Below, piece by piece: positions 137 through 34,235 of a DNA stretch of 64,000 nt (position 1 is the first letter of the stretch; the number at the start of each line of letters is the position of its first letter). Origin of the DNA: Polynucleobacter sp. AM-25C3. Its GTDB lineage: Bacteria; Pseudomonadota; Gammaproteobacteria; Burkholderiales; Burkholderiaceae. The notes below the pieces were generated by a model. It saw only the letters and a program-made list of their open reading frames with translations. It was not told where the DNA came from and searched no databases. The stretch lies in the NCBI RefSeq assembly GCF_018882335.1, contig NZ_JACVOS010000008.1, positions 1 to 64,000 on the forward strand, written 5' to 3'. Both the position numbers and the translations under genes were made by a program.

Positions 137-181
137 TGGTGGGTCGGGCGAGATTCGAACTCGCGACCAACGGATTAAAAG
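137..181 (-). repeat. Attachment-site copy at the left island end (tRNA-Lys 3' fragment)
   Basis: This is identical to 34160-34204 over 45 bp. Read on the minus strand it is the 3' end of a tRNA-Lys gene including CCA, the T-arm, the variable loop and the 3' side of the anticodon arm. Identity stops at 136 on one side and 182 on the other. The 5' half of the tRNA is missing, so this is a duplicated att site and not a functional tRNA. Confidence 0.92.
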
Positions 182-542
182 ACTTAAGAATTGTGCTGAA
201 CAGTAATCAAAACATTAGCTTAAACCTGCTTAGAAAGTGATGTGATATCGGCGGTTGGTCTAGCGGGTTTGGTTGGCGTAAGGTGGAGATCAATTGGTTT
301 CGACAGCGTCTTGTTGGAGTGTCGCGTTTCCGGACGCTTATGTTGTCGGGTTAACCGACACTTGGAATGGGAGCTATCGGCCACTAAGAGACCTTCTGAA
401 GTTGTTGAGCCGCCTCTTCCACCAAGTCATTGGGTATTCAGGGGGTTGTGGCATTACAGCAGCTATGTGAGTGATTAATCCATTTGACTTGTATGGAAAA
501 GCTCTAAATGCAAAATACGAAGAAATATGCTGTAATTAGCTA
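182..542. other. Left-end intergenic region of the island with conserved end sites
   Basis: No gene is supported here. A 78-aa frame at 242-478 looks like chance coding and has no ribosome binding site. The stretch holds a conserved 15-bp-type element (around 321-335) and the palindrome TGTCGGGTTAACCGACA at 344-360, both mirrored near the right island end. The upstream region of the first efflux gene follows. Confidence 0.6.
344..360 (-). repeat. Island palindrome copy A (TGTCGG-N5-CCGACA)
   Basis: The sequence is TGTCGGGTTAACCGACA. It is the reverse complement of the copies at 7506 and 33989. It lies 163 bp inside the left att copy, and a GTCGCGTTTCCGGACGCT element sits just outside it at 321-338. 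See the finding on mirrored end sites. Confidence 0.75.
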
Positions 543-7369: not shown

Positions 7370-7731
7370 CCTAAATCAGCTCAATCTAGTCTGTACTCTG
7401 GGTCGCCCTAAATGATCTGGATTAACCTCGCTGAATAGTAAAGACAGCGCCCATCTATAGTTGGTTTTGGGTCGTTATCGGTCCATTGCTAACGGCATCC
7501 TACTATGTCGGTTAACCCGACAACCGTCGTGTTTCGAGACGCTCACGGCTAATCAGTGCTTAACATTCCCACTCACAACGACCCAATATTGTCTATTGTT
7601 CCCAACGGGCTTAAAAATGTCGAATTGGCTTTAGACAGGGTTCCTTGGGTGTTAACGATTGGTTATTGGTAAATCGGCAAAAGGCCGATGACTGCTTTCG
7701 GCTAATAAGAGGCGGTAGTGTCACCTCTTTT
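7370..7731. other. 362-bp intergenic region with island palindrome and terminator
   Basis: No coding region is supported. It contains palindrome copy B (7506-7522), the GTCGTGTTTCGAGAC element (7526-7540), a 6-bp stem hairpin at 7673-7689 (ATCGGC/GCCGAT) and a rho-independent terminator at 7707-7733. The order palindrome-then-15-mer is the same as at the right island end, so this may be a fossil element boundary. Confidence 0.6.
7506..7540 (+). repeat. Island palindrome copy B plus 15-bp partner element
   Basis: TGTCGGTTAACCCGACA at 7506-7522 is followed after 3 bp by GTCGTGTTTCGAGAC at 7526-7540. The arrangement is nearly identical to 33989-34023 near the right island end, with one mismatch in the 15-mer. 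Confidence 0.75.
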
Positions 7732-22867: not shown

Positions 22868-22884
22868 TGTCGGTTTACTCGACA
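22868..22884 (+). repeat. Island palindrome copy C, upstream of the integrase
   Basis: TGTCGGTTTACTCGACA has one imperfect arm. The preceding ATCCACACATGAAA resembles ATCCACATATGAAA before copy E at 33989. It lies 67 bp upstream of the integrase start. Confidence 0.7.
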
Positions 22885-22924: not shown

Positions 22925-22949
22925 CAAGTGTCTCGAAACACGACACTTG
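22925..22949. promoter_or_regulatory. Inverted repeat abutting the integrase start codon
   Basis: CAAGTGTC (22925-22932) and GACACTTG (22942-22949) form an 8-bp stem around TCGAAACAC. Within it, 22930-22944 is the reverse complement of the 15-mer at 7526-7540. It ends one base before GTG 22951, where a Shine-Dalgarno would be expected, so it may act as an operator or as an RNA hairpin limiting translation. Confidence 0.6.
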
Positions 22950-22950
22950 A

Positions 22951-24165
22951 GTGCAAAATCTAAACCAGCTTTTCTCTAAATCTAGTGCATCCCAGTCTGC
23001 TGATGTAATTCACCTCCACCGAGGTTTAGTAAGTCTCTTTAAGCGATCAGGCAGCAATCAATGGCAATGCCGCTTTAGGTTGCCTAACGATCAATGGCAT
23101 TCCATGAGCACTGGCCAGGCGGATCTTGAGGAGGCCAAGCATACCTCTATAGCACTCTATGAGCAGACCATGGCTAAGATAAGCCAGGAATTAAGCCTCA
23201 AATCCAAGTCATTTAAGCAGTTGGCTGAAGAAGACCTCGTGGCAATGGATATTGCCAATAAAGAAGGTAATGGCAAAGCTATCTTTAAGGATTACAAGTT
23301 TGTTCTCAATAAATACCTCATCCCGTTTTTTGGAAAATTCCAATTAAAGGAAATCACTCCCGAACTGGTTAAGGATTTTGAATCTTGGCGCTTATCCCAA
23401 ATGGGAAGAGATCCCCAGGCAAGCACTAAGCGTACCCATGCAACGACCTATAACCGGATAGTTGCCTTAGCTAGAGAGCAAAACTTGATTGCCGATACTT
23501 TTCGGGTTCCTTTATTAGATCCCCATGGATCTCCCAGTCAAGCAAGACCCGCTTTTAGTAAAGAGGAGATCATTCAATTATTAGCCTACATGCCTAGCTG
23601 GGAGAAGGTGGGGAGATCATCGCGTACTAAGGAGATGAGACAGCTATGCCGCTCTTATGTGGAATTCTTACTCTATACGGGAGCAAGGCCTGGAACCGAG
23701 CTAAAGCCCATGCGCTGGAAGCATTTGCAATGGCATTGGATTGGCGATCAACGCTATCTCAAGGTTTGGCTTTCCGGTAAAACAGGACCTCGGTATTTAA
23801 TTGCCAAACATTTGGTGGTGGATTGCTTGGAAAGATTAATTGCTTGGCATCAATTGCCATATAAAGATCTAAATGCCGTCATAGAGGCTAGGTTAGATCA
23901 TCTGATATTTACTTTCCCAAGAGGGGTTCAGCCTTATAACTTCAATCCTCAGTTTGAGAATCTACTAAAGGAATGCAATTTGCTGAAAGATGTAGCGGGG
24001 CGCAATCGCAGTCTGTATAGTCTGCGCCATACCTATGCCACATTTGCACTAGCTGAAGGGGTTGATATACACACCCTCGCTAGGCAAATGGGTACTTCGA
24101 CATTAATGATTGAGCGTCACTACTCAAAACTCACCCCAATGATGGCAGCCGCTAAGTTGGCTTAG
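22951..24165 (+). CDS. Tyrosine recombinase (phage-type integrase) of the island
   Basis: This 404-aa protein starts at GTG 22951, the only in-frame start before conserved sequence (a stop lies directly upstream). The N-terminal third holds an arm-binding-like domain and a SAM-like core-binding domain (about 80-170). The catalytic domain has R246 in TGARPGTE, R359 in YSLRHTY and the nucleophile Y391 in RHYSKL. It should catalyse integration at the tRNA-Lys 3' end, but it lies 11 kb from the tRNA, not beside it. It is convergent with, and overlaps by 4 bp, the minus-strand gene at 24162. Confidence 0.88.
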   Translation: MQNLNQLFSKSSASQSADVIHLHRGLVSLFKRSGSNQWQCRFRLPNDQWHSMSTGQADLEEAKHTSIALYEQTMAKISQELSLKSKSFKQLAEEDLVAMDIANKEGNGKAIFKDYKFVLNKYLIPFFGKFQLKEITPELVKDFESWRLSQMGRDPQASTKRTHATTYNRIVALAREQNLIADTFRVPLLDPHGSPSQARPAFSKEEIIQLLAYMPSWEKVGRSSRTKEMRQLCRSYVEFLLYTGARPGTELKPMRWKHLQWHWIGDQRYLKVWLSGKTGPRYLIAKHLVVDCLERLIAWHQLPYKDLNAVIEARLDHLIFTFPRGVQPYNFNPQFENLLKECNLLKDVAGRNRSLYSLRHTYATFALAEGVDIHTLARQMGTSTLMIERHYSKLTPMMAAAKLA

Positions 24166-24710
24166 ATCTCAAATTTTCCAATATGCAATTCTTCACATAA
24201 AAAACTTTCAATGTCAGCCCTCAGTTCAACTTGCGTATGTCCATCAATAATGTCGGAAATGAGCTGAGGGAAACCATCATTTGATATGTGCCTGGAATCC
24301 GATAGTGCTTGATACCGATCTCTGGATTTGGTGTAGTAGTAAAGCGCCTCGTTAAATAAGGCTTCCATTTCATGAAGATCAAGTAAGGCGCTTAGAGCTG
24401 CACGAATGCATAAAGCTGAATTCTTATTCATGAGCCAATAGATCGAGCAGTCTTTATTAGCTAAGCTAGTAGCAATAAATTCAACATGCTTTAGATTGCC
24501 GATGACCATATAAGACCGATTTGGACCTGTGAAATTAAGATAACCATCCAGTATTTTGATGGCATCAAGCTCAGAATCAATTGTCCCAATTGGTTTTGAA
24601 TGCCCGCGTATATAGATCTTCTGTGAAGATGAGCTGATCTTCTGAAAGTATTCGGGATCAATGCCATGGTTAGGAGTGTCAAAAACAAAGACTGTTCTAG
24701 GGTAGCGCAT
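24162..24710 (-). CDS. Unknown 182-aa island protein
   Basis: ATG 24710 is preferred over a TTG at 24728. No recognised domain is seen. The N-terminus MRYPRTVFVFDTPNHGIDP alternates strands and turns. The middle, YLNFTGPNRSYMVIGNLKHVEF, looks like a Rossmann-type strand-helix region, and the C-terminal half is helical. It is the last gene of the minus-strand run starting at 27024, so it may belong with the AAA+ ATPase, although 73 bp separate it from the small gene upstream. Confidence 0.55.
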   Translation of the reverse strand: MRYPRTVFVFDTPNHGIDPEYFQKISSSSQKIYIRGHSKPIGTIDSELDAIKILDGYLNFTGPNRSYMVIGNLKHVEFIATSLANKDCSIYWLMNKNSALCIRAALSALLDLHEMEALFNEALYYYTKSRDRYQALSDSRHISNDGFPQLISDIIDGHTQVELRADIESFLCEELHIGKFEI

Positions 24711-24783
24711 GACAACCCCAAAATTCAAAAATTACCATCTTCATATTCTTTTTCTATGTGCTCGTATTGGGTGATTTCAATAT

Positions 24784-24966
24784 TTAAAAAGTAGTTAATC
24801 GATAGTAGGCTTCCAAAAGATCGGAAATCTGAATAATTCGAGACTTTTCGGTTATCTCAACCTCGTTTACACATTCATCTTCAATGGCATTCAATACAAC
24901 ATATGCGCCATCAATGCTGCTATATGTTTCTCGGTCATTTAGTACAACTGCGTCAAAATATTTCAT
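24784..24966 (-). CDS. Unknown 60-aa island protein
   Basis: The start is ATG 24966, preceded by TTGGAG at a good distance. A longer frame to 25092 overlaps the upstream gene in another frame. The product is acidic (MKYFDAVVLNDRETY at the start) with no known domain. It is in the minus-strand AAA+ gene run. Its small size makes it a candidate regulator or recombination directionality factor, but nothing in the sequence shows this. Confidence 0.5.
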   Translation of the reverse strand: MKYFDAVVLNDRETYSSIDGAYVVLNAIEDECVNEVEITEKSRIIQISDLLEAYYRLTTF

Positions 24967-25009
24967 GATTACTCCAAGGTAAATTAATTTAAGTAGATTT
25001 GTTAAGGAT

Positions 25010-25456
25010 TTAGCGCTTACGTATGCGGCTAATAATTTGTAAAAACTCCACCAATTCCTCATACGAGAAGTGGCCGCCTTGGATTTCTTCAAGCATGAGT
25101 TTTGCCATCATGAGTAGCTCAATAGAGTTGGTGGGTCTCTGCGCGGGCTCAAGCGTAAAAGTATTGGGAACAATTAAATTCCAAGAGACGCGATTAAGGT
25201 CTTGGTATTTAGATCCCGCAATCTGAAGGATGTTGGGCGCTAGCTTTAAAGTGGTGAAAACATAGAAAACCTCGCTATCATCAATTTGCTGTTGCCATTC
25301 CTCTTCAAATTGCACCTTATTCACAATCTTTCTGGTGGAGACAGCATGGTTTTTAGCAAGGACAAAGGTGCCGATACCTTCGTCCCCGCTTACCAATTCA
25401 GTAAGCGCCTGCACAGTGATTTCCATCAGCAGTTCAACAGATTTGCGCTTATTCAT
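25010..25456 (-). CDS. Unknown 148-aa island protein coupled to the AAA+ ATPase
   Basis: The product is about 148 aa from ATG 25456, which overlaps the AAA+ stop codon by 8 bp, so translation is coupled. It has a helical N-terminus (KRKSVELLMEITVQALTEL), a beta-rich middle and a helical C-terminus ending in RIRKR. No family is recognised. The tight coupling suggests a physical partner of the ATPase. Confidence 0.6.
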   Translation of the reverse strand: MNKRKSVELLMEITVQALTELVSGDEGIGTFVLAKNHAVSTRKIVNKVQFEEEWQQQIDDSEVFYVFTTLKLAPNILQIAGSKYQDLNRVSWNLIVPNTFTLEPAQRPTNSIELLMMAKLMLEEIQGGHFSYEELVEFLQIISRIRKR

Positions 25457-26153
25457 CTTCAAACTGCCGCTCACGAATAGACTGAGTTATTTCAATATCA
25501 GTGAGAATCGTCCTGGCTGATCCGTTTCCAGCATTGACAACACCTGCAATGGCTTGATCTGTTGGTGGCGTTTTGCCAGAGGCTGCGTAGATTGATTTGA
25601 TCTTGCTGACCCAGGCAGAGGTTGGAGCAGAATTCATATCCAATACGATGGATCGATTAATAACCCCCGGATCTACCTTATTAAGATGATTTGTTGTGAG
25701 AACAAAAACTACGTGGGTGTAGTTCATGATTGCCTTGAGCGATGCATGAGCAGCTGCCGTCAGGTTGTCCACTTCATCCAAAATTACATAATGCAAGCAG
25801 CTTGGGTTAAAGCTCATAGTCATCACGTGAGTTTGAATCTGTCCGATTAGCGAGGCGCCGTTTTGCCCTTGAGCGCAAGAGTAAAAATCAATATTGGGCT
25901 GTGTGGAGTCAATAATTGAGCCCACGGGAATTGATTGCAATACAGGGGTAGTTTTGACAGTCTCTAGCCAGCCAGGCAATAGCTTGGCCATCGTGGTTTT
26001 GCCAGAGCCATAGACTCCGTAAAGTAGCAGTGCTGATACTCCATTGCCGGGAAACTTTACGGTACCGTCTATTACGGCTTCTAGCTTAGCCCTTGTATGG
26101 GGCATTAATGCAAAGTCATCAGGTGATGACGGGGTCGATATATTGAGTGCCAT
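25449..26153 (-). CDS. AAA+ ATPase resembling a clamp-loader small subunit
   Basis: This 234-aa protein has Walker A GVYGSGKT (46-53), Walker B VILDEVD (123-129), a sensor-1 asparagine in LTTNHLNKV (N155) and an arginine in VINRS (R167) at the place of a clamp-loader arginine finger. The LDEVDNLTAAAHASLKAIM stretch is close in pattern to RFC or phage gp44 small subunits. It lacks the C-terminal collar domain of full clamp loaders. It may load or remodel a ring or a nucleoprotein complex during island replication, recombination or defence. No polymerase or clamp is encoded nearby. Confidence 0.75.
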   Translation of the reverse strand: MALNISTPSSPDDFALMPHTRAKLEAVIDGTVKFPGNGVSALLLYGVYGSGKTTMAKLLPGWLETVKTTPVLQSIPVGSIIDSTQPNIDFYSCAQGQNGASLIGQIQTHVMTMSFNPSCLHYVILDEVDNLTAAAHASLKAIMNYTHVVFVLTTNHLNKVDPGVINRSIVLDMNSAPTSAWVSKIKSIYAASGKTPPTDQAIAGVVNAGNGSARTILTDIEITQSIRERQFEDE

Positions 26154-26226
26154 AGTTCCTCCTAGTTAGTTATGGCTTCACTCATTTCTTATCCGTATTG
26201 GCTTACCGCTTTACACAAAAACGCAA

Positions 26227-27024
26227 TTACGCGCCTACAGCTTGTTTTATTGCACTATCGCGAGACTGATCATCGTTTGCTGCTTTAGCAGCCGGAGCTT
26301 TTTCGTGTTGCTCCTTAGCTACTGAGTGCGCCAAACTGGCCAGTACGGCGGTAATAGCTGTACCGTTTTGCACTAGTCTACGAATGGCAAAACTACCATC
26401 AGCTTCTCTGGTGGAAAGCAGGACTAAGGCCCCGTTGTATTCGGATGCTTGAAACTGACCTGCCAACGTATCGCTATGAAAGGAGGCTAAGATTCGCCCT
26501 TCCATGGCAACGCGGCCAACTGCTGCTTTATCCTTGGCCGTTTTATGGTTGGGTGATCGCTCGCGCCGAACTTCTTCAACCCCACCTTTATCTCTAAAAA
26601 ACTGTGGGATTTCCATACTAGGTGTCTTTGACTCTGCTGCCGCTCGTAGCGCAAGGGCGTAAGAGCTAACGCGACGACGGTCTTCTTTTCCAAAGACACA
26701 TTGCACCACCTTGGTCATGAGGTGGGTATTGTCTTTAAAGTCCCAACCTTGCTGCTTACAAAACTCTAAGAACCCTTTTTTTACAGCCATAGCTTCCGAC
26801 TTAATGCTGTTCATGCTTTGAAACAAGATGTAACAGCTTTGCAAGATGCCATAAAGGCGTTCATTGCTTCGAGTTAGATCTTGCGTTTGCCAAGCTTTTC
26901 GTTCAGCAATCAAGTTGTTTACTACGGCTCCTACAGATAATTGCGAATCTTGTGTGATTTTTTCAACCAGATTCGTAACTACCTGTCCATCTACTTTCTC
27001 AGTTACTTCTGCTATTTGGTCCAT
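26227..27024 (-). CDS. Unknown 265-aa island protein, first gene of the AAA+ operon
   Basis: ATG 27024 has a strong AAGGAGG 6 bp upstream. The sequence is mostly helical, with a central segment FGKEDRRRVSSYALALRAAAE that looks like a DNA-binding or oligomerisation helix pair, and a basic linker (RRERSPNHKTAKDK). No known domain is recognised. It heads the minus-strand run with the AAA+ ATPase (73 bp downstream). Palindrome copy D lies 57 bp before its start and may be its operator or its target. Confidence 0.6.
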   Translation of the reverse strand: MDQIAEVTEKVDGQVVTNLVEKITQDSQLSVGAVVNNLIAERKAWQTQDLTRSNERLYGILQSCYILFQSMNSIKSEAMAVKKGFLEFCKQQGWDFKDNTHLMTKVVQCVFGKEDRRRVSSYALALRAAAESKTPSMEIPQFFRDKGGVEEVRRERSPNHKTAKDKAAVGRVAMEGRILASFHSDTLAGQFQASEYNGALVLLSTREADGSFAIRRLVQNGTAITAVLASLAHSVAKEQHEKAPAAKAANDDQSRDSAIKQAVGA

Positions 27025-27080: not shown

Positions 27081-27097
27081 TGTCGGGAAACCCGACA
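27081..27097. repeat. Island palindrome copy D, upstream of the AAA+ operon
   Basis: TGTCGGGAAACCCGACA is a perfect 7-bp inverted repeat around AAA. It lies between the divergent 265-aa gene (minus, start 27024) and the helix-turn-helix gene (plus, start 27322), a natural place for an operator. Confidence 0.75.
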
Positions 27098-27321
27098 GTG
27101 GATAAGAAATGAGTGAATTGTTAAAGAGCGGTAATGCCAATGAAGAGAAATGTATGTCGAAAATGAGCGTTTTTTTGCCGATCAAAAAAACTAAAAGTTA
27201 TTGACACAAAATAGGGATTTTTCTTAGCCATGTTTAATATGGGTAGAATGATTTATTGTTATAAAAATAGTTGACAAAAAATGAGGTGTTTTTTGGAAAA
27301 TCTAGTACAACCCAAAAGCAA

Positions 27322-27855
27322 ATGAAACGAAAACTCAAACTTCTTGAGCATCGCCGCTTAGAAGGCGCTCGCCTTTTAATGAAGGGAGTAGCTAAAGTAG
27401 AAGTTGCCCGGCAATTGGGAGTGAGCCGTCAAAGTGTGCAGAACTGGGCGATTCGATTAACAGTCAAAAGAAAAACAGATATGGGCGGCACGATAACCGC
27501 TAGCTTTCAGCAAGAAGAAAAAGGGTTCTTAAGTAATAAGAAAATCTATAAAACGAGCTATAACGAGTTACGCTGTCAGCAGTTAGGTAGACCTAAGAAG
27601 CTGACAAATAATGAAGTGCAAAAATTAAAACGGGCTTTAAAGGCCGGCGCTAAAGCGGCGGGGCATTTAACGGATAAATGGACGCTCTCAAAGATTCAGG
27701 CATTAATTGAGCAAGAGTATTTGGCAGGTGAAACTGTTAGCCGTACCTATGTATTGCAACTATTGCGCGATCTGGGTTTTAGCTGTGAAAAGCCAGGATT
27801 AGATGATGAACTCCCATTGCGTAAATGGGAGCGCTTGGGTTGGATAGAGCGGTAA
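27322..27855 (+). CDS. IS630-type helix-turn-helix protein without transposase catalytic domain
   Basis: The protein is 177 aa from ATG 27322; an upstream TTG at 27271 lies in a TTGACA-like box and is less likely. The N-terminal half is a helix-turn-helix (GVAKVEVARQLGVSRQSVQN), followed by a winged-helix-like region (GRPKKLTNNEVQKLKRAL, then WTLSKIQALIEQEY and RTYVLQLLRDLGF) as in IS630-family transposases. The DDE domain is absent and the gene ends cleanly, so this may be a domesticated DNA-binding regulator and not just a fragment. It is divergent from the AAA+ operon. Confidence 0.7.
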   Translation: MKRKLKLLEHRRLEGARLLMKGVAKVEVARQLGVSRQSVQNWAIRLTVKRKTDMGGTITASFQQEEKGFLSNKKIYKTSYNELRCQQLGRPKKLTNNEVQKLKRALKAGAKAAGHLTDKWTLSKIQALIEQEYLAGETVSRTYVLQLLRDLGFSCEKPGLDDELPLRKWERLGWIER

Positions 27856-27861
27856 CTTAAT

Positions 27862-28428
27862 TTATATAAGCTCTACGGCCTGTCTCTTTTGTTCATCGTT
27901 GACATCGATGTACCTTTGGGTCACAGCAATCGATCTGTGACCAGCAAGACTGGCTAAGATTCGAACGCCGATGCCTTTATTAGCCAAAGTTGTGATGAAA
28001 AATTTTCTGCCCGAATGGCTGCTTCCACCGCTAATGCCCACATTCTTATAAAGCTGGTGAAACCAAACGCATAAGCCATTAGGGCTAAAGCGTAATCGGT
28101 GATCCGTATGAAAGAAGGGAATATCAGCGCCTTTGGCATGTCTTGTGGTGAGGTAGTTAGCTAATTCCACCTGTAAACGCTGTGAAACAAAGACGGTTCT
28201 AGGGTATTTGCCTTTGGTTTGTGCTGCTGATAAACGGATTTCATTCTTAATGGTGCCATCGGGGTTGACCACATCACCCATGGTAAGTGAGGCTATTTCG
28301 GCGACCCTTAGGCCACCTAAGAAGCTGGTAAGAATGATTGCTCTATCGCGTAGAGCATACTTTTTGGTGCTGACATACTCCAGAACAATGTCTAGTTCTG
28401 CCTGGGATAGTGTTTTTGCTTGTGCCAT
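27862..28428 (-). CDS. Minimal tyrosine recombinase (catalytic domain only)
   Basis: This 188-aa protein contains all catalytic residues of a tyrosine recombinase: R41 in GGLRVAEI, K72, H138 and R141 in HSGRKFF, H164 in LAGHRS, and nucleophile Y173 in QRYIDV. It lacks the N-terminal SAM-like core-binding domain of XerC/D. Single-domain recombinases exist (FimB/FimE types), so it may be active, perhaps on inverted sites. Start ATG 28428. A 13-bp perfect inverted repeat lies 123 bp upstream. It converges on the helix-turn-helix gene with a 6-bp gap. Confidence 0.82.
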   Translation of the reverse strand: MAQAKTLSQAELDIVLEYVSTKKYALRDRAIILTSFLGGLRVAEIASLTMGDVVNPDGTIKNEIRLSAAQTKGKYPRTVFVSQRLQVELANYLTTRHAKGADIPFFHTDHRLRFSPNGLCVWFHQLYKNVGISGGSSHSGRKFFITTLANKGIGVRILASLAGHRSIAVTQRYIDVNDEQKRQAVELI

Positions 28429-29541: not shown

Positions 29542-29982
29542 ATGAGCCAATTAAGTCACTTAAAGCTAGTAGCCGTTAAAAAACCCCGCAATATGCCCGC
29601 AATTGTTATACGTAGGAATAAGCTCGGATCCAAACTCTGGGAGCAGATCCAACTCGCTAAAAGTCAGCTAGAAGGAACACCATTTGTAGTCATGAAGTAC
29701 AAAACTGTGAAAGATCGTGAAACAGGATTACGTAAACAAGTGGAAGTTCCAAAACGTATAAAACCATGGTGGTTTCAAAGTGAGGAAGGAAAGGTCTGTG
29801 TCTCTGTGAAATATGGCAGTTGTACTTTGGAGTTAGCCAAAGGCAAGCCTAGCGTTGAAGTAGCCAGTGGAGAGGGATTGGTTAAAGCACTTGAATCCAT
29901 TAAAGCAGCAGTAGAGGCGGGGGAGCTCGATCAGCAGATTGAATCTGCAAGCTCCACTTTAAGAAGTGGGTTTAAACGTTAA
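29542..29982 (+). CDS. DUF6641 family protein
   Basis: This 146-aa protein has GGAG 8 bp upstream of ATG 29542. Its pattern, RRNKLGSKLWEQIQLAKSQL, VPKRIKPWWF, KVCVSVKYGS and a helical C-terminus ending SGFKR, is that of the DUF6641 family, which I associate with proteobacterial islands. It is a small basic, cytoplasmic protein, probably nucleic-acid binding, but the function is unknown. It opens the plus-strand group of small island genes. The family assignment is from memory of the pattern. Confidence 0.75.
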   Translation: MSQLSHLKLVAVKKPRNMPAIVIRRNKLGSKLWEQIQLAKSQLEGTPFVVMKYKTVKDRETGLRKQVEVPKRIKPWWFQSEEGKVCVSVKYGSCTLELAKGKPSVEVASGEGLVKALESIKAAVEAGELDQQIESASSTLRSGFKR

Positions 29983-32229: not shown

Positions 32230-32913
32230 TTAAATAAGTCCTTTAGCCTTAGCCTCTCGATATCTCAAGGTTAACTGAAGTAGCTTAGCCGCACGATTTA
32301 CCTTAAGCTTTTCCATGAGGTTCGCTCGATGCGCTTCTACGGTTTTAATTGAAATACCTAAGTCCATGCCAACTTCCTTATTAATCCTGCCAGCAACAAT
32401 GCGATCAAGCACATCAACTTCTCTTTGGGTTAGAAGTCTAAATCTCTCTTTGATCTCTTTGAGCTCCGTAGATTGTTCTTTACTGAGATAAGCCTTTGAT
32501 AGCATTTCATTGATTAAGCCACAAAGCTTTTCTTCATCTACTGGTTTTTGAATAAAGTCAAAAGCCCCCTTTTTGAGCGCGTTTACCGCAGTGGTGATCT
32601 CCCCATGGCCAGTAATAAACGCAATGGGAATATTAAGACCCATATTCAGAAGCATTTCTTGAAGTTCGATTCCAGACATGCCACCAAGGTGAATATCTAC
32701 TAAAGCACAGCCCAAAGATTGTTGATCACTAGCGGCTAGTGATTGCAAGAATCTTTCGGCACTTTCATGAGGGCTGACCCTAAAGCCATAGGCATTAAGT
32801 AGTAGAGCCAGGGAATCTCGAATCGCTTCGTCATCATCAATGACATACACCACACCGCCTTTTCCCGGAGGGGAAGGGTTGGGTTGATTGAGCATTGTTC
32901 GCTGCCGATTCAT
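32230..32913 (-). CDS. FixJ-family response regulator (orphan)
   Basis: This 227-aa protein has a receiver domain (about 20-140) with acidic pocket D26-D28, phosphoacceptor D73 in ALVDIHL, T101 and K123, then a LuxR-type helix-turn-helix (about 160-220; QREVDVLDRIVAGRINKEV). It would activate transcription when phosphorylated. No histidine kinase is encoded in the island. It overlaps by 4 bp the 118-aa unknown gene upstream and forms a three-gene minus-strand operon with 33269. Confidence 0.85.
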   Translation of the reverse strand: MNRQRTMLNQPNPSPPGKGGVVYVIDDDEAIRDSLALLLNAYGFRVSPHESAERFLQSLAASDQQSLGCALVDIHLGGMSGIELQEMLLNMGLNIPIAFITGHGEITTAVNALKKGAFDFIQKPVDEEKLCGLINEMLSKAYLSKEQSTELKEIKERFRLLTQREVDVLDRIVAGRINKEVGMDLGISIKTVEAHRANLMEKLKVNRAAKLLQLTLRYREAKAKGLI

Positions 32914-33988: not shown

Positions 33989-34023
33989 TGTCGGTTAACC
34001 CGACAACCGTCGTGTATCGAGAC
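33989..34023 (+). repeat. Island palindrome copy E plus 15-bp partner element
   Basis: TGTCGGTTAACCCGACA (33989-34005) is followed by GTCGTGTATCGAGAC (34009-34023). It lies 155 bp inside the right att copy, mirroring copy A near the left end, and shares its layout with copy B at 7506. Confidence 0.78.
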
Positions 34024-34159: not shown

Positions 34160-34235
34160 TGGTGGGTCGGGCGAGATTCGAACTCGCGACCAACGGATTA
34201 AAAGTCCGCTGCTCTACCGACTGAGCTACCGACCC
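34160..34235 (-). tRNA. tRNA-Lys (anticodon TTT), integration target
   Basis: This is a 76-nt cloverleaf with acceptor GGGTCGG/CCGACCC, D-arm GCTC/GAGC, anticodon stem CGGA/TCCG with loop CTTTTAA, T-arm GTTCGAA loop, and encoded CCA. Its 3' 45 nt are duplicated at 137-181 as the island att site, so integration restored an intact gene. A TATAAT -10-like hexamer lies on the minus strand at 34253-34248. Confidence 0.95.

Follow-up and report, generated by a model that had tools for sequence, protein, structure and literature searches.

The stretch of DNA analysed here (hereafter the window: 64,000 nucleotides, positions 1 to 64,000 of contig NZ_JACVOS010000008.1) comes from a Polynucleobacter host and carries a 34-kb island at a tRNA-Lys gene. 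The island is delimited by an exact 45-bp direct repeat of the tRNA-Lys 3′ end, the attL-like copy (137..181, no strand; the last 45 bp of the gene) repeating positions 34160-34204, which form the attR-like core within the target gene itself, tRNA-Lys(TTT) (34160..34235, minus strand; ARAGORN and Rfam). Within this island, an original prediction had singled out five open reading frames (ORFs) of 265, 234, 148, 60 and 182 amino acids (aa) as an operon of a clamp-loader-like AAA+ ATPase and four unrecognised proteins. As that prediction stated, the five are co-directional, all lying on the minus strand, and the ATPase gene overlaps that of the 148-aa protein (gene B) by 8 bp; the remaining gaps in the run are 73, 43 and 73 bp.

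Two of these genes are central to our analysis: A265 (26227..27024, minus strand), whose 265-aa product belongs to no recognised family, is predicted to be mostly helical and is our proposed palindrome-binding protein; and the 234-aa AAA+ ATPase, hereafter AAA (25449..26153, minus strand; profile matches and alignment), which is of the clamp-loader (RFC/gamma) type. They are accompanied by a tyrosine recombinase of 404 aa, the integrase (INT; 22951..24165, plus strand; phrog_1, E = 5e-31), by a small second tyrosine recombinase comprising a catalytic domain only (YR188; 27862..28428, minus strand; profile matches and alignment), and by a DUF6641 protein (29542..29982, plus strand; PF20346, E = 5e-16). 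In YR188, the residues R41, K72, H138, R141, H164 and Y173, which we take to be catalytic, are invariant in all 14 aligned sequences. The combination of a tyrosine integrase with direct repeats of a tRNA 3′ end, which marks tRNA-targeting integrative islands, is present in the window and likewise in the G016 island, which occupies the same tRNA-Lys with an integrase 96% identical to that of the window; tRNA-Lys was also found near the island of locus L087.

Comparison with related loci establishes that the conserved unit is A265 and AAA, accompanied by YR188, DUF6641 and the integrase, and not the five-gene operon. AAA lies directly downstream of A265, on the same strand and with a gap of -67 to 108 bp, in 74 of 81 distinct A265 genes, a count biased toward adjacency because most loci were found through AAA. 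Near the 47 well-flanked A265 genes (distinct genes with at least 6.5 kb on either side, neighbours being counted within 9 kb), we found YR188 in 47, AAA in 43, DUF6641 in 43, the integrase in 40, proteins of the W and P220 families (see below) in 37 and 19, respectively, and the 182-aa gene D in 5. In the kind of neighbourhood survey that the original prediction proposed, A265 and AAA thus do recur with integrase and DUF6641, while the full five-gene set does not. Among 39 same-genus loci chosen from AAA matches, A265 lies beside AAA in 38, the sole exception being L062, which has a broken AAA and no A265; the 148-aa gene was found in one of these loci, the 60-aa gene in none (the query being the 102-aa ORF that contains it) and the 182-aa gene in five.

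A search of 399 genomes seeded with A265 gave 10 hits in 8 genomes, with AAA present in 6 of the 10 and absent in 4. Seven of the 81 A265 genes lack AAA, including those of L111 and L115, which end at a contig end, and that of L127, which is a fragment. AAA without A265 within 2.5 kb was seen in 5 of 79 distinct cases; in L143, from a Rhodospirillaceae-labelled bin, AAA lacks A265, yet is accompanied by YR188 and an integrase. The pair also occurs in records labelled as other Burkholderiales and Gammaproteobacteria. The recurrence of A265 and AAA with the same recombinases exceeds chance. In a set of 42 distinct islands, five different arrangements of the five core genes (by order or orientation) were seen, the commonest accounting for 26.

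Near relatives of the window reveal how these genes are exchanged. Gene B (25010..25456, minus strand; ATG start, 154 aa from an upstream start), gene C (24784..24966, minus strand; 60 aa) and gene D (24162..24710, minus strand; 188 aa from an upstream start) belong to no family; D is accessory and C is not conserved. In L087, replacement is confined to the block 24166-25008, which extends from the integrase stop to the B stop and holds C and D; its AAA and A265 are 97-98% identical to those of the window. In L063, L064, L065 and L069, a different block is replaced, from 24711 to about 27860, with B, C, AAA and A265 in it, and identity to the window is 92-96% for D and the integrase; homology to the window runs from the integrase through the D start codon (24710) and resumes at 27855-27872, the YR188 end, and A265 and AAA are only 27-31% identical to their window counterparts. 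In these near relatives, the edges of exchange coincide with gene ends. This pattern of block swaps indicates that A265 and AAA travel together and that B, C and D are extras, even though B was exchanged in the same block as the pair in the latter loci.

AAA retains a Walker A motif (GVYGSGKTT), a Walker B motif (LDEVD), sensor 1 (TTN), an arginine finger (R167) and sensor 2 (R214), the motif names being those we presume to apply. D126, E127, N155, R167 and R214 are invariant across 45 aligned sequences, that of the window included, which bears out the earlier statement that the motifs are kept. The resemblance to clamp loaders is evident in matches to the phrog_168 clamp loader (E = 5e-15), to DnaX TIGR02397 (E = 3e-12; 46 bits against a cut-off of 250) and, with a profile of the AAA family, to the RFC small subunit (E = 3.5e-19), and all of the motifs expected of a clamp loader are found. 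These matches stop at residue 218 (phrog_168), 226 (TIGR02397) or 229 (phrog_5846) and, with 234 aa in the window and 219-253 aa in 38 same-genus relatives, the protein leaves no room for the C-terminal collar (domain III). Thus, judged by its sequence, AAA resembles clamp loaders genuinely but partially: the profile matches and motifs of the predicted clamp-loader-like protein stand, the collar does not. No clamp or polymerase match besides AAA itself was obtained in a Pfam search of 20 window proteins, which covers the island ORFs in part, in agreement with the claim that none is near, and there is no IstB match among the Pfam hits of the window AAA.

More distant AAA relatives encoded on viral contigs are 24-35% identical (best 80 of 258) and longer (304-341 aa in the 8 best of 81 matches), and around these best 80 of 258 loci, as well as four loci from the palindrome scan, we found no match to A265, YR188, DUF6641, the integrase, W or P220. 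A tblastn search with AAA gave two plasmid records and one phage record, with identities of 27-32%. When viral contigs were scanned with AAA, YR188 and A265 one protein at a time, a procedure sensitive to close relatives only, no match was obtained.

A role as an anti-phage defence system carried as cargo had been among the functions originally suggested. The window has variable accessory genes beside an integrase, which is typical of defence islands, and 38 of the 45 AAA sequences match the PADLOC TRIP13 model at E <= 0.001. For the window ATPase, however, this match (8.6e-5) is weaker than those to clamp loaders, and the other PADLOC AAA-domain hits are weak too; PADLOC returned nothing for A265, B, C or D; and a recombinase, YR188, accompanies A265 in all well-flanked loci. 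We therefore consider defence very improbable.

The A265 protein itself is not readily classified. Its fold has no match in the Protein Data Bank (PDB) at E <= 0.001; a second fold comparison had as its best hit a TetR-like structure with a Z score of 6.0, within the noise of the tool; and the single match to PDB sequences has an E value of 0.18. Pfam hits for 43 A265 sequences are scattered, each occurring in at most 3 of the 43, and include no HORMA family. With tblastn, nothing was found at E <= 0.01 in 72,556 plasmid records, nor in phages.

The island also contains a recurring DNA site. Five 17-bp palindromes of the type TGTCGG-N5-CCGACA are present in the window, where 0.04 matches are expected and the largest number in any shuffle was 1, and all five are intergenic, although only 8.8% of the 17-mers of the island are intergenic by our own gene list. 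They are TGTCGGGTTAACCGACA, inside the left end (344..360); TGTCGGTTAACCCGACA, at 7506..7522 within a 41-bp repeat shared with the right end; TGTCGGTTTACTCGACA, upstream of the integrase (22868..22884; one difference); TGTCGGGAAACCCGACA (27081..27097), which precedes the A265 start codon by 57 bp, a position similar to that in L087 and L034; and a further TGTCGGTTAACCCGACA, inside the right end (33989..34005). A second palindrome upstream of the integrase, GTGTCTCGAAACACGACAC (22928..22946), lies just before the start codon, with similar sites at INT -14/-15 in L065 and L088; none of these sites has a strand. The five not only lie inside both ends of the island but also divide it into an efflux block, a second cargo block, an integrase-AAA-A265 block and a YR188-DUF6641 block, the cargo (543-22767; RND efflux pump, two P-type ATPases, multicopper oxidase and MerR regulator) being split in two by the site at 7506.

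Related islands contain other versions of the palindrome (TGTCGTTTWAAACGACA with TGTCCTTTWAAAGGACA; GTCGTGT-N3-ACACGAC; AATCGTTTNAAACGATT), in some cases up to 11 copies per 19 kb, while several islands have no such palindromes near the core genes. In window-type islands, the sites lie ahead of INT (-51 to -76), YR188 (-82, -92) and A265 (-65, -70). In the islands with other versions, palindrome centres lie about 7-57 bp past the ends of DUF6641, YR188, AAA and INT (we looked to 60 bp), and a palindrome is often found 46-61 bp inside the A265 coding start. The commonest version, TGTCGTTTWAAACGACA, is present as an exact match in 51 of 73 same-genus genomes and in none of 48 others, and a reversed control gave no match. 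L085, which has A265 and no AAA, contains two copies of an 18-bp palindrome, although two-copy pairs can arise by chance. The bare 17-bp palindrome was found in four viral contigs, and a 29-base cassette-end pattern in none. Intrinsic terminators were considered and rejected as an explanation of the palindromes, the stem being weak and lacking a T run (terminator-like hairpins follow some of them, by eye), as was a general genomic signal: allowing one mismatch, there are 6 places in the 2.1-Mb genome, 4 of them in the window island.

The palindrome also occurs apart from the core genes. Twelve loci from same-genus genomes (L148-L159), chosen because they hold the palindrome, are arrays of short gene groups, with a tRNA-Phe gene in 7 of the 12, and many of the gene groups end in a pair of palindromes (palA and palB) and a copy of the tRNA-Phe 3′ end. 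None of the 12 contains a match to A265, AAA, YR188 or W; DUF6641 is present in one, and integrase matches in two. The recurrent order at the right end is palA, palB and the tRNA-Phe 3′ end, with 46 bp between the palindromes and 106 bp from palB to the tRNA end. Of 66 copies of the tRNA-Phe end, identified with up to 4 mismatches, 10 have palB at a distance of exactly 106 bp and 8 have palA at 152 bp; where the two palindromes form a close pair, 12 of 22 pairs are spaced by 46 bp. On the other side of the tRNA-Phe end, palA lies 235-239 bp away in 6. Furthermore, in 25 distinct cassette ends, selected from all fetched loci for palA with palB 44-47 bp away, the 28 bp preceding palA have a mean pairwise identity of 32%, compared with 69% for the 28 bp that follow it, the latter segment not having been selected on; this one-sided conservation suggests a junction at the palindrome.

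These distributions bear on one account of the sites, in which A265 does no more than regulate transcription within the island and the palindromes serve as its ordinary operators. The positions ahead of INT, A265 and (outside the window) YR188 in window-type islands are what such a regulator would need, whereas in the other large island group the palindromes follow stop codons and lie within the beginning of the A265 coding sequence, and the twelve arrays carry them without a match to A265, AAA or YR188. In addition, the palindrome is present in 26 of 27 same-genus genomes with an A265 match and in 25 of 46 without, which fits mobile cassettes and not the targets of a resident regulator. Pure regulation is thus improbable, in our estimation.

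We then compared the palindrome type of each island with the trees of the core proteins, counting the fewest changes of type that each tree requires. For 34 islands with all five proteins (L063 and L067 kept), A265 and AAA required 4 changes each, YR188 and DUF6641 5 each and INT 6. In three of the four runs of a second test, L063 and L067 were dropped: L063 has its only counted site in the integrase promoter, which it inherited together with the integrase itself (96% identity to that of the window), and the only sites of L067 lie 517-563 bp upstream of the integrase, at the apparent end of a neighbouring cassette. In these runs, A265 required 3 changes (the minimum for four types), AAA 3, YR188 5 and INT 7 with 41 islands; A265 4, AAA 5, YR188 6 and DUF6641 7 with 36 islands; and A265 4, AAA 5 and YR188 6 with 46 islands. 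Palindrome type therefore follows the A265 tree best by this count, cleanly only once the two islands are dropped, and we take A265 as the likely candidate for the protein that reads the palindrome.

An alternative reader is YR188 itself, which as a FimB/Xer-like recombinase might cut at the palindromes to add, remove or invert gene modules, with A265 and AAA regulating it or performing a separate task. It is the one protein near every well-flanked A265 gene, its presumed catalytic residues are kept, the one-sided conservation at palA looks like a junction, palindromes follow the stop codons of DUF6641, YR188, AAA and INT, and the order and orientation of the core genes vary as described above. 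On the other hand, the palindromes of L102, L105, L109, L110 and L113 are of the window type, while identity between their YR188 and that of the window is only 44-48%; YR188 requires more changes of type than A265 in the 34-island test and in three of the four later runs, being equal in the fourth; and in the lineage of the window itself, the breakpoints of the module swaps fall at gene ends where no palindrome is present. We regard this alternative as possible, if on the unlikely side. Similarly speculative would be an integron-like but unrelated form of gene capture, in which YR188 would join and exchange genes at the 17-bp palindromes, A265 and AAA would serve as an ATP-driven, site-specific synapsis factor, and the second integrase would file the units, down to machinery-free one-gene cassettes, in tRNA arrays.

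The reading that we tentatively prefer, with somewhat less than even confidence, is that A265 and AAA form a two-protein accessory unit of the mobility machinery in a family of integrative islands, in which A265 binds the palindromes and the ATPase acts on the resulting DNA assemblies, thereby timing both recombinases. An A265 dimer would bind the palindromes, including those in the arms of attP and those at its own and the integrase promoters; the collar-less AAA would oligomerise with A265 and, by analogy with other AAA+ proteins, hydrolyse ATP to build or clear A265-DNA assemblies; and these assemblies would set the timing of the integrase, which acts at the tRNA site, and of YR188. MuB, TnsC and IstB serve transposases as helpers in a comparable manner. 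For islands that combine two recombinases, one of them an integrase for the tRNA site, with palindromes and an ATPase pair, the economical reading is that A265 and AAA control assembly at the palindromes.

Several observations weigh against this proposal. The islands L082-L085 have A265 and no AAA, so that the ATPase is not essential to the island family, and no DNA-binding fold was recognised in A265 by the fold, PDB-sequence and Pfam searches. The comparison of trees rests on few independent changes and, with L063 and L067 kept among 48 islands, A265, AAA and YR188 required 6 changes each. In G016, A265 and AAA are 27% and 31% identical, respectively, to those of the window, yet window-type palindromes are present at the left end and in the integrase promoter; no palindrome of exactly this type lies near the right end, and the A265/AAA swap looks recent. 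The window lacks the palindrome ahead of YR188 that several relatives have. In the arrays, a search of the first 260 bp on the arm side of the tRNA-Phe end found no palindrome for 42 of the 66 copies, and the standard spacer is found beside only 14 of 54 palA sites.

It has also to be considered whether A265 serves the island, once excised as a circle, as an initiator or partition protein, with AAA as its loader or segregation ATPase, so that the pair would copy or maintain the element. This would agree with the clamp-loader type of the ATPase and with the several palindromes per island, since centromere and iteron systems have several sites per element. Related extra proteins near A265-AAA (L140:11685-12200 and L141:5821-6357) might point the same way, the L140 protein having an HAH motif that, by eye, recalls rolling-circle replication enzymes, although it matches no such family. 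However, A265, B and D have no match to Rep, ParA or ParB families (C was covered by part of those scans), A265 is absent from the plasmid records at the threshold given above, and the fixed distances between palindromes and attachment core point to recombination. We consider a replication or partition role a serious rival, if on the unlikely side. Consistent with the preferred reading of an accessory unit for mobility, the functions listed in the original prediction probably narrow to integration control.

The remaining genes of this part of the island vary more. In most relatives, a protein of the W family (about 250-330 aa, with a 'YYWWWAxL' motif; for example, L044:2336-3082, L081:7849-8595 and L126:6833-7813) is encoded between YR188 and A265; this family is absent from the window, where its place is occupied by a helix-turn-helix (HTH) protein similar to the N-terminal region of a transposase (27271..27855, plus strand), flanked by A265 and YR188 and with relatives in none of the 39 same-genus loci. 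P220/P177 (28670..29203, minus strand) is an uncharacterised protein. A FixJ-like response regulator is encoded in the right part of the island (32230-32913; NF006900, E = 1e-57, below the cut-off), and 6 of the 39 same-genus loci contain relatives.

In a sample of 398 genomes from across the phylum, 17 contain DUF6641; its AlphaFold model (pLDDT 85) has no PDB match at E <= 0.001. The window's genome contains two further DUF6641 loci, G000:C53 (L214) and G000:C49 (L215), the latter with YR188, W-family and integrase genes and no A265 or AAA match within the fetched part. In L205, L206, L209 and L210, which are from the same class and represent 4 of the 12 regions fetched outside the genus, DUF6641 adjoins a double-AAA protein of 681-725 aa, and in two of them a XerC-like recombinase is also present. 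This double-AAA protein is of a different type (the best NCBIfam match of the two tested is IteA, below the cut-off), so that the association of DUF6641 with a recombinase and an ATPase may have arisen more than once, and a parallel module of this kind may exist outside the genus.

With a defined core, a DNA site and machinery-free cassettes, the island family now permits direct tests to identify the reader of the palindrome and the recombinase that acts on it, and to establish the role of a clamp-loader-type ATPase in recombination. For many genomic islands we know of no established mode of movement, and this system, perhaps a novel means by which genes are moved and swapped, could account for some of the turnover of genes in Polynucleobacter, which is widespread in fresh water; the metal-resistance genes aboard the window island illustrate the useful cargo that it moves.

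Our literature searches found no description of the A265-AAA-YR188-DUF6641 core, no paper naming DUF6641 and none combining tyrosine recombinase, AAA+ ATPase, genomic island and clamp loader, so that this island family of freshwater bacteria is apparently undescribed, as the original prediction had suspected for the five-gene set, which is not itself the system. Among the closest known systems are the tRNA-targeting or 'additive' flexible islands and tycheposons, which, as the main text of PMC10872708 presents them, share with the window island a tyrosine recombinase, insertion at a tRNA 3′ end, tRNA-end direct repeats and variable cargo; a tyrosine recombinase at the tRNA border, the tycheposon hallmark in that text, is found here. 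The islands described here differ in having the A265-AAA-YR188-DUF6641 core and the palindromes, and that main text contains no word beginning with 'palindrom' or 'cassette' (PMC10872708).

The arrays resemble integrons and cassette arrays without an integrase in their short gene groups, their recurring end module and the absence of the machinery from some genomes, but their ends consist of two 17-bp palindromes and the 3′ end of a tRNA gene, and the recombinases score far below the integron integrase cut-off (TIGR02249, 265; YR188, 25.2 bits; INT404, 15.9 bits). The gamma-mobile-trio elements, too, are mobile islands with a tyrosine recombinase and uncharacterised partner proteins, whereas YR188 scores 21.1 bits against GmtY NF040693 (cut-off 340) and INT404 has no listed match. 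ParABS systems are set apart in that AAA matches AAA+ families and the Pfam matches include no ParA or ParB family. With the clamp loaders (RFC small subunit, DnaX gamma/tau and T4 gp44), AAA has in common Walker A and B, sensor 1, the arginine finger and sensor 2, while those proteins have a collar, for which AAA has no room, and AAA has A265 as its partner. Membership in the clamp-loader, integron and gamma-mobile-trio classes thus fails, on the collar in the first case and on the recombinase cut-offs in the others, and the function that we propose for the pair is inferred from sequence comparisons. In its presumed manner of working, and in that alone, the system is reminiscent of the Mu (MuB), Tn7 (TnsC) and IS21 (IstB) transposons, which likewise combine a recombination enzyme with a DNA-binding AAA+ helper, the islands described here having tyrosine recombinases instead of DDE transposases and an ATPase of the clamp-loader type.

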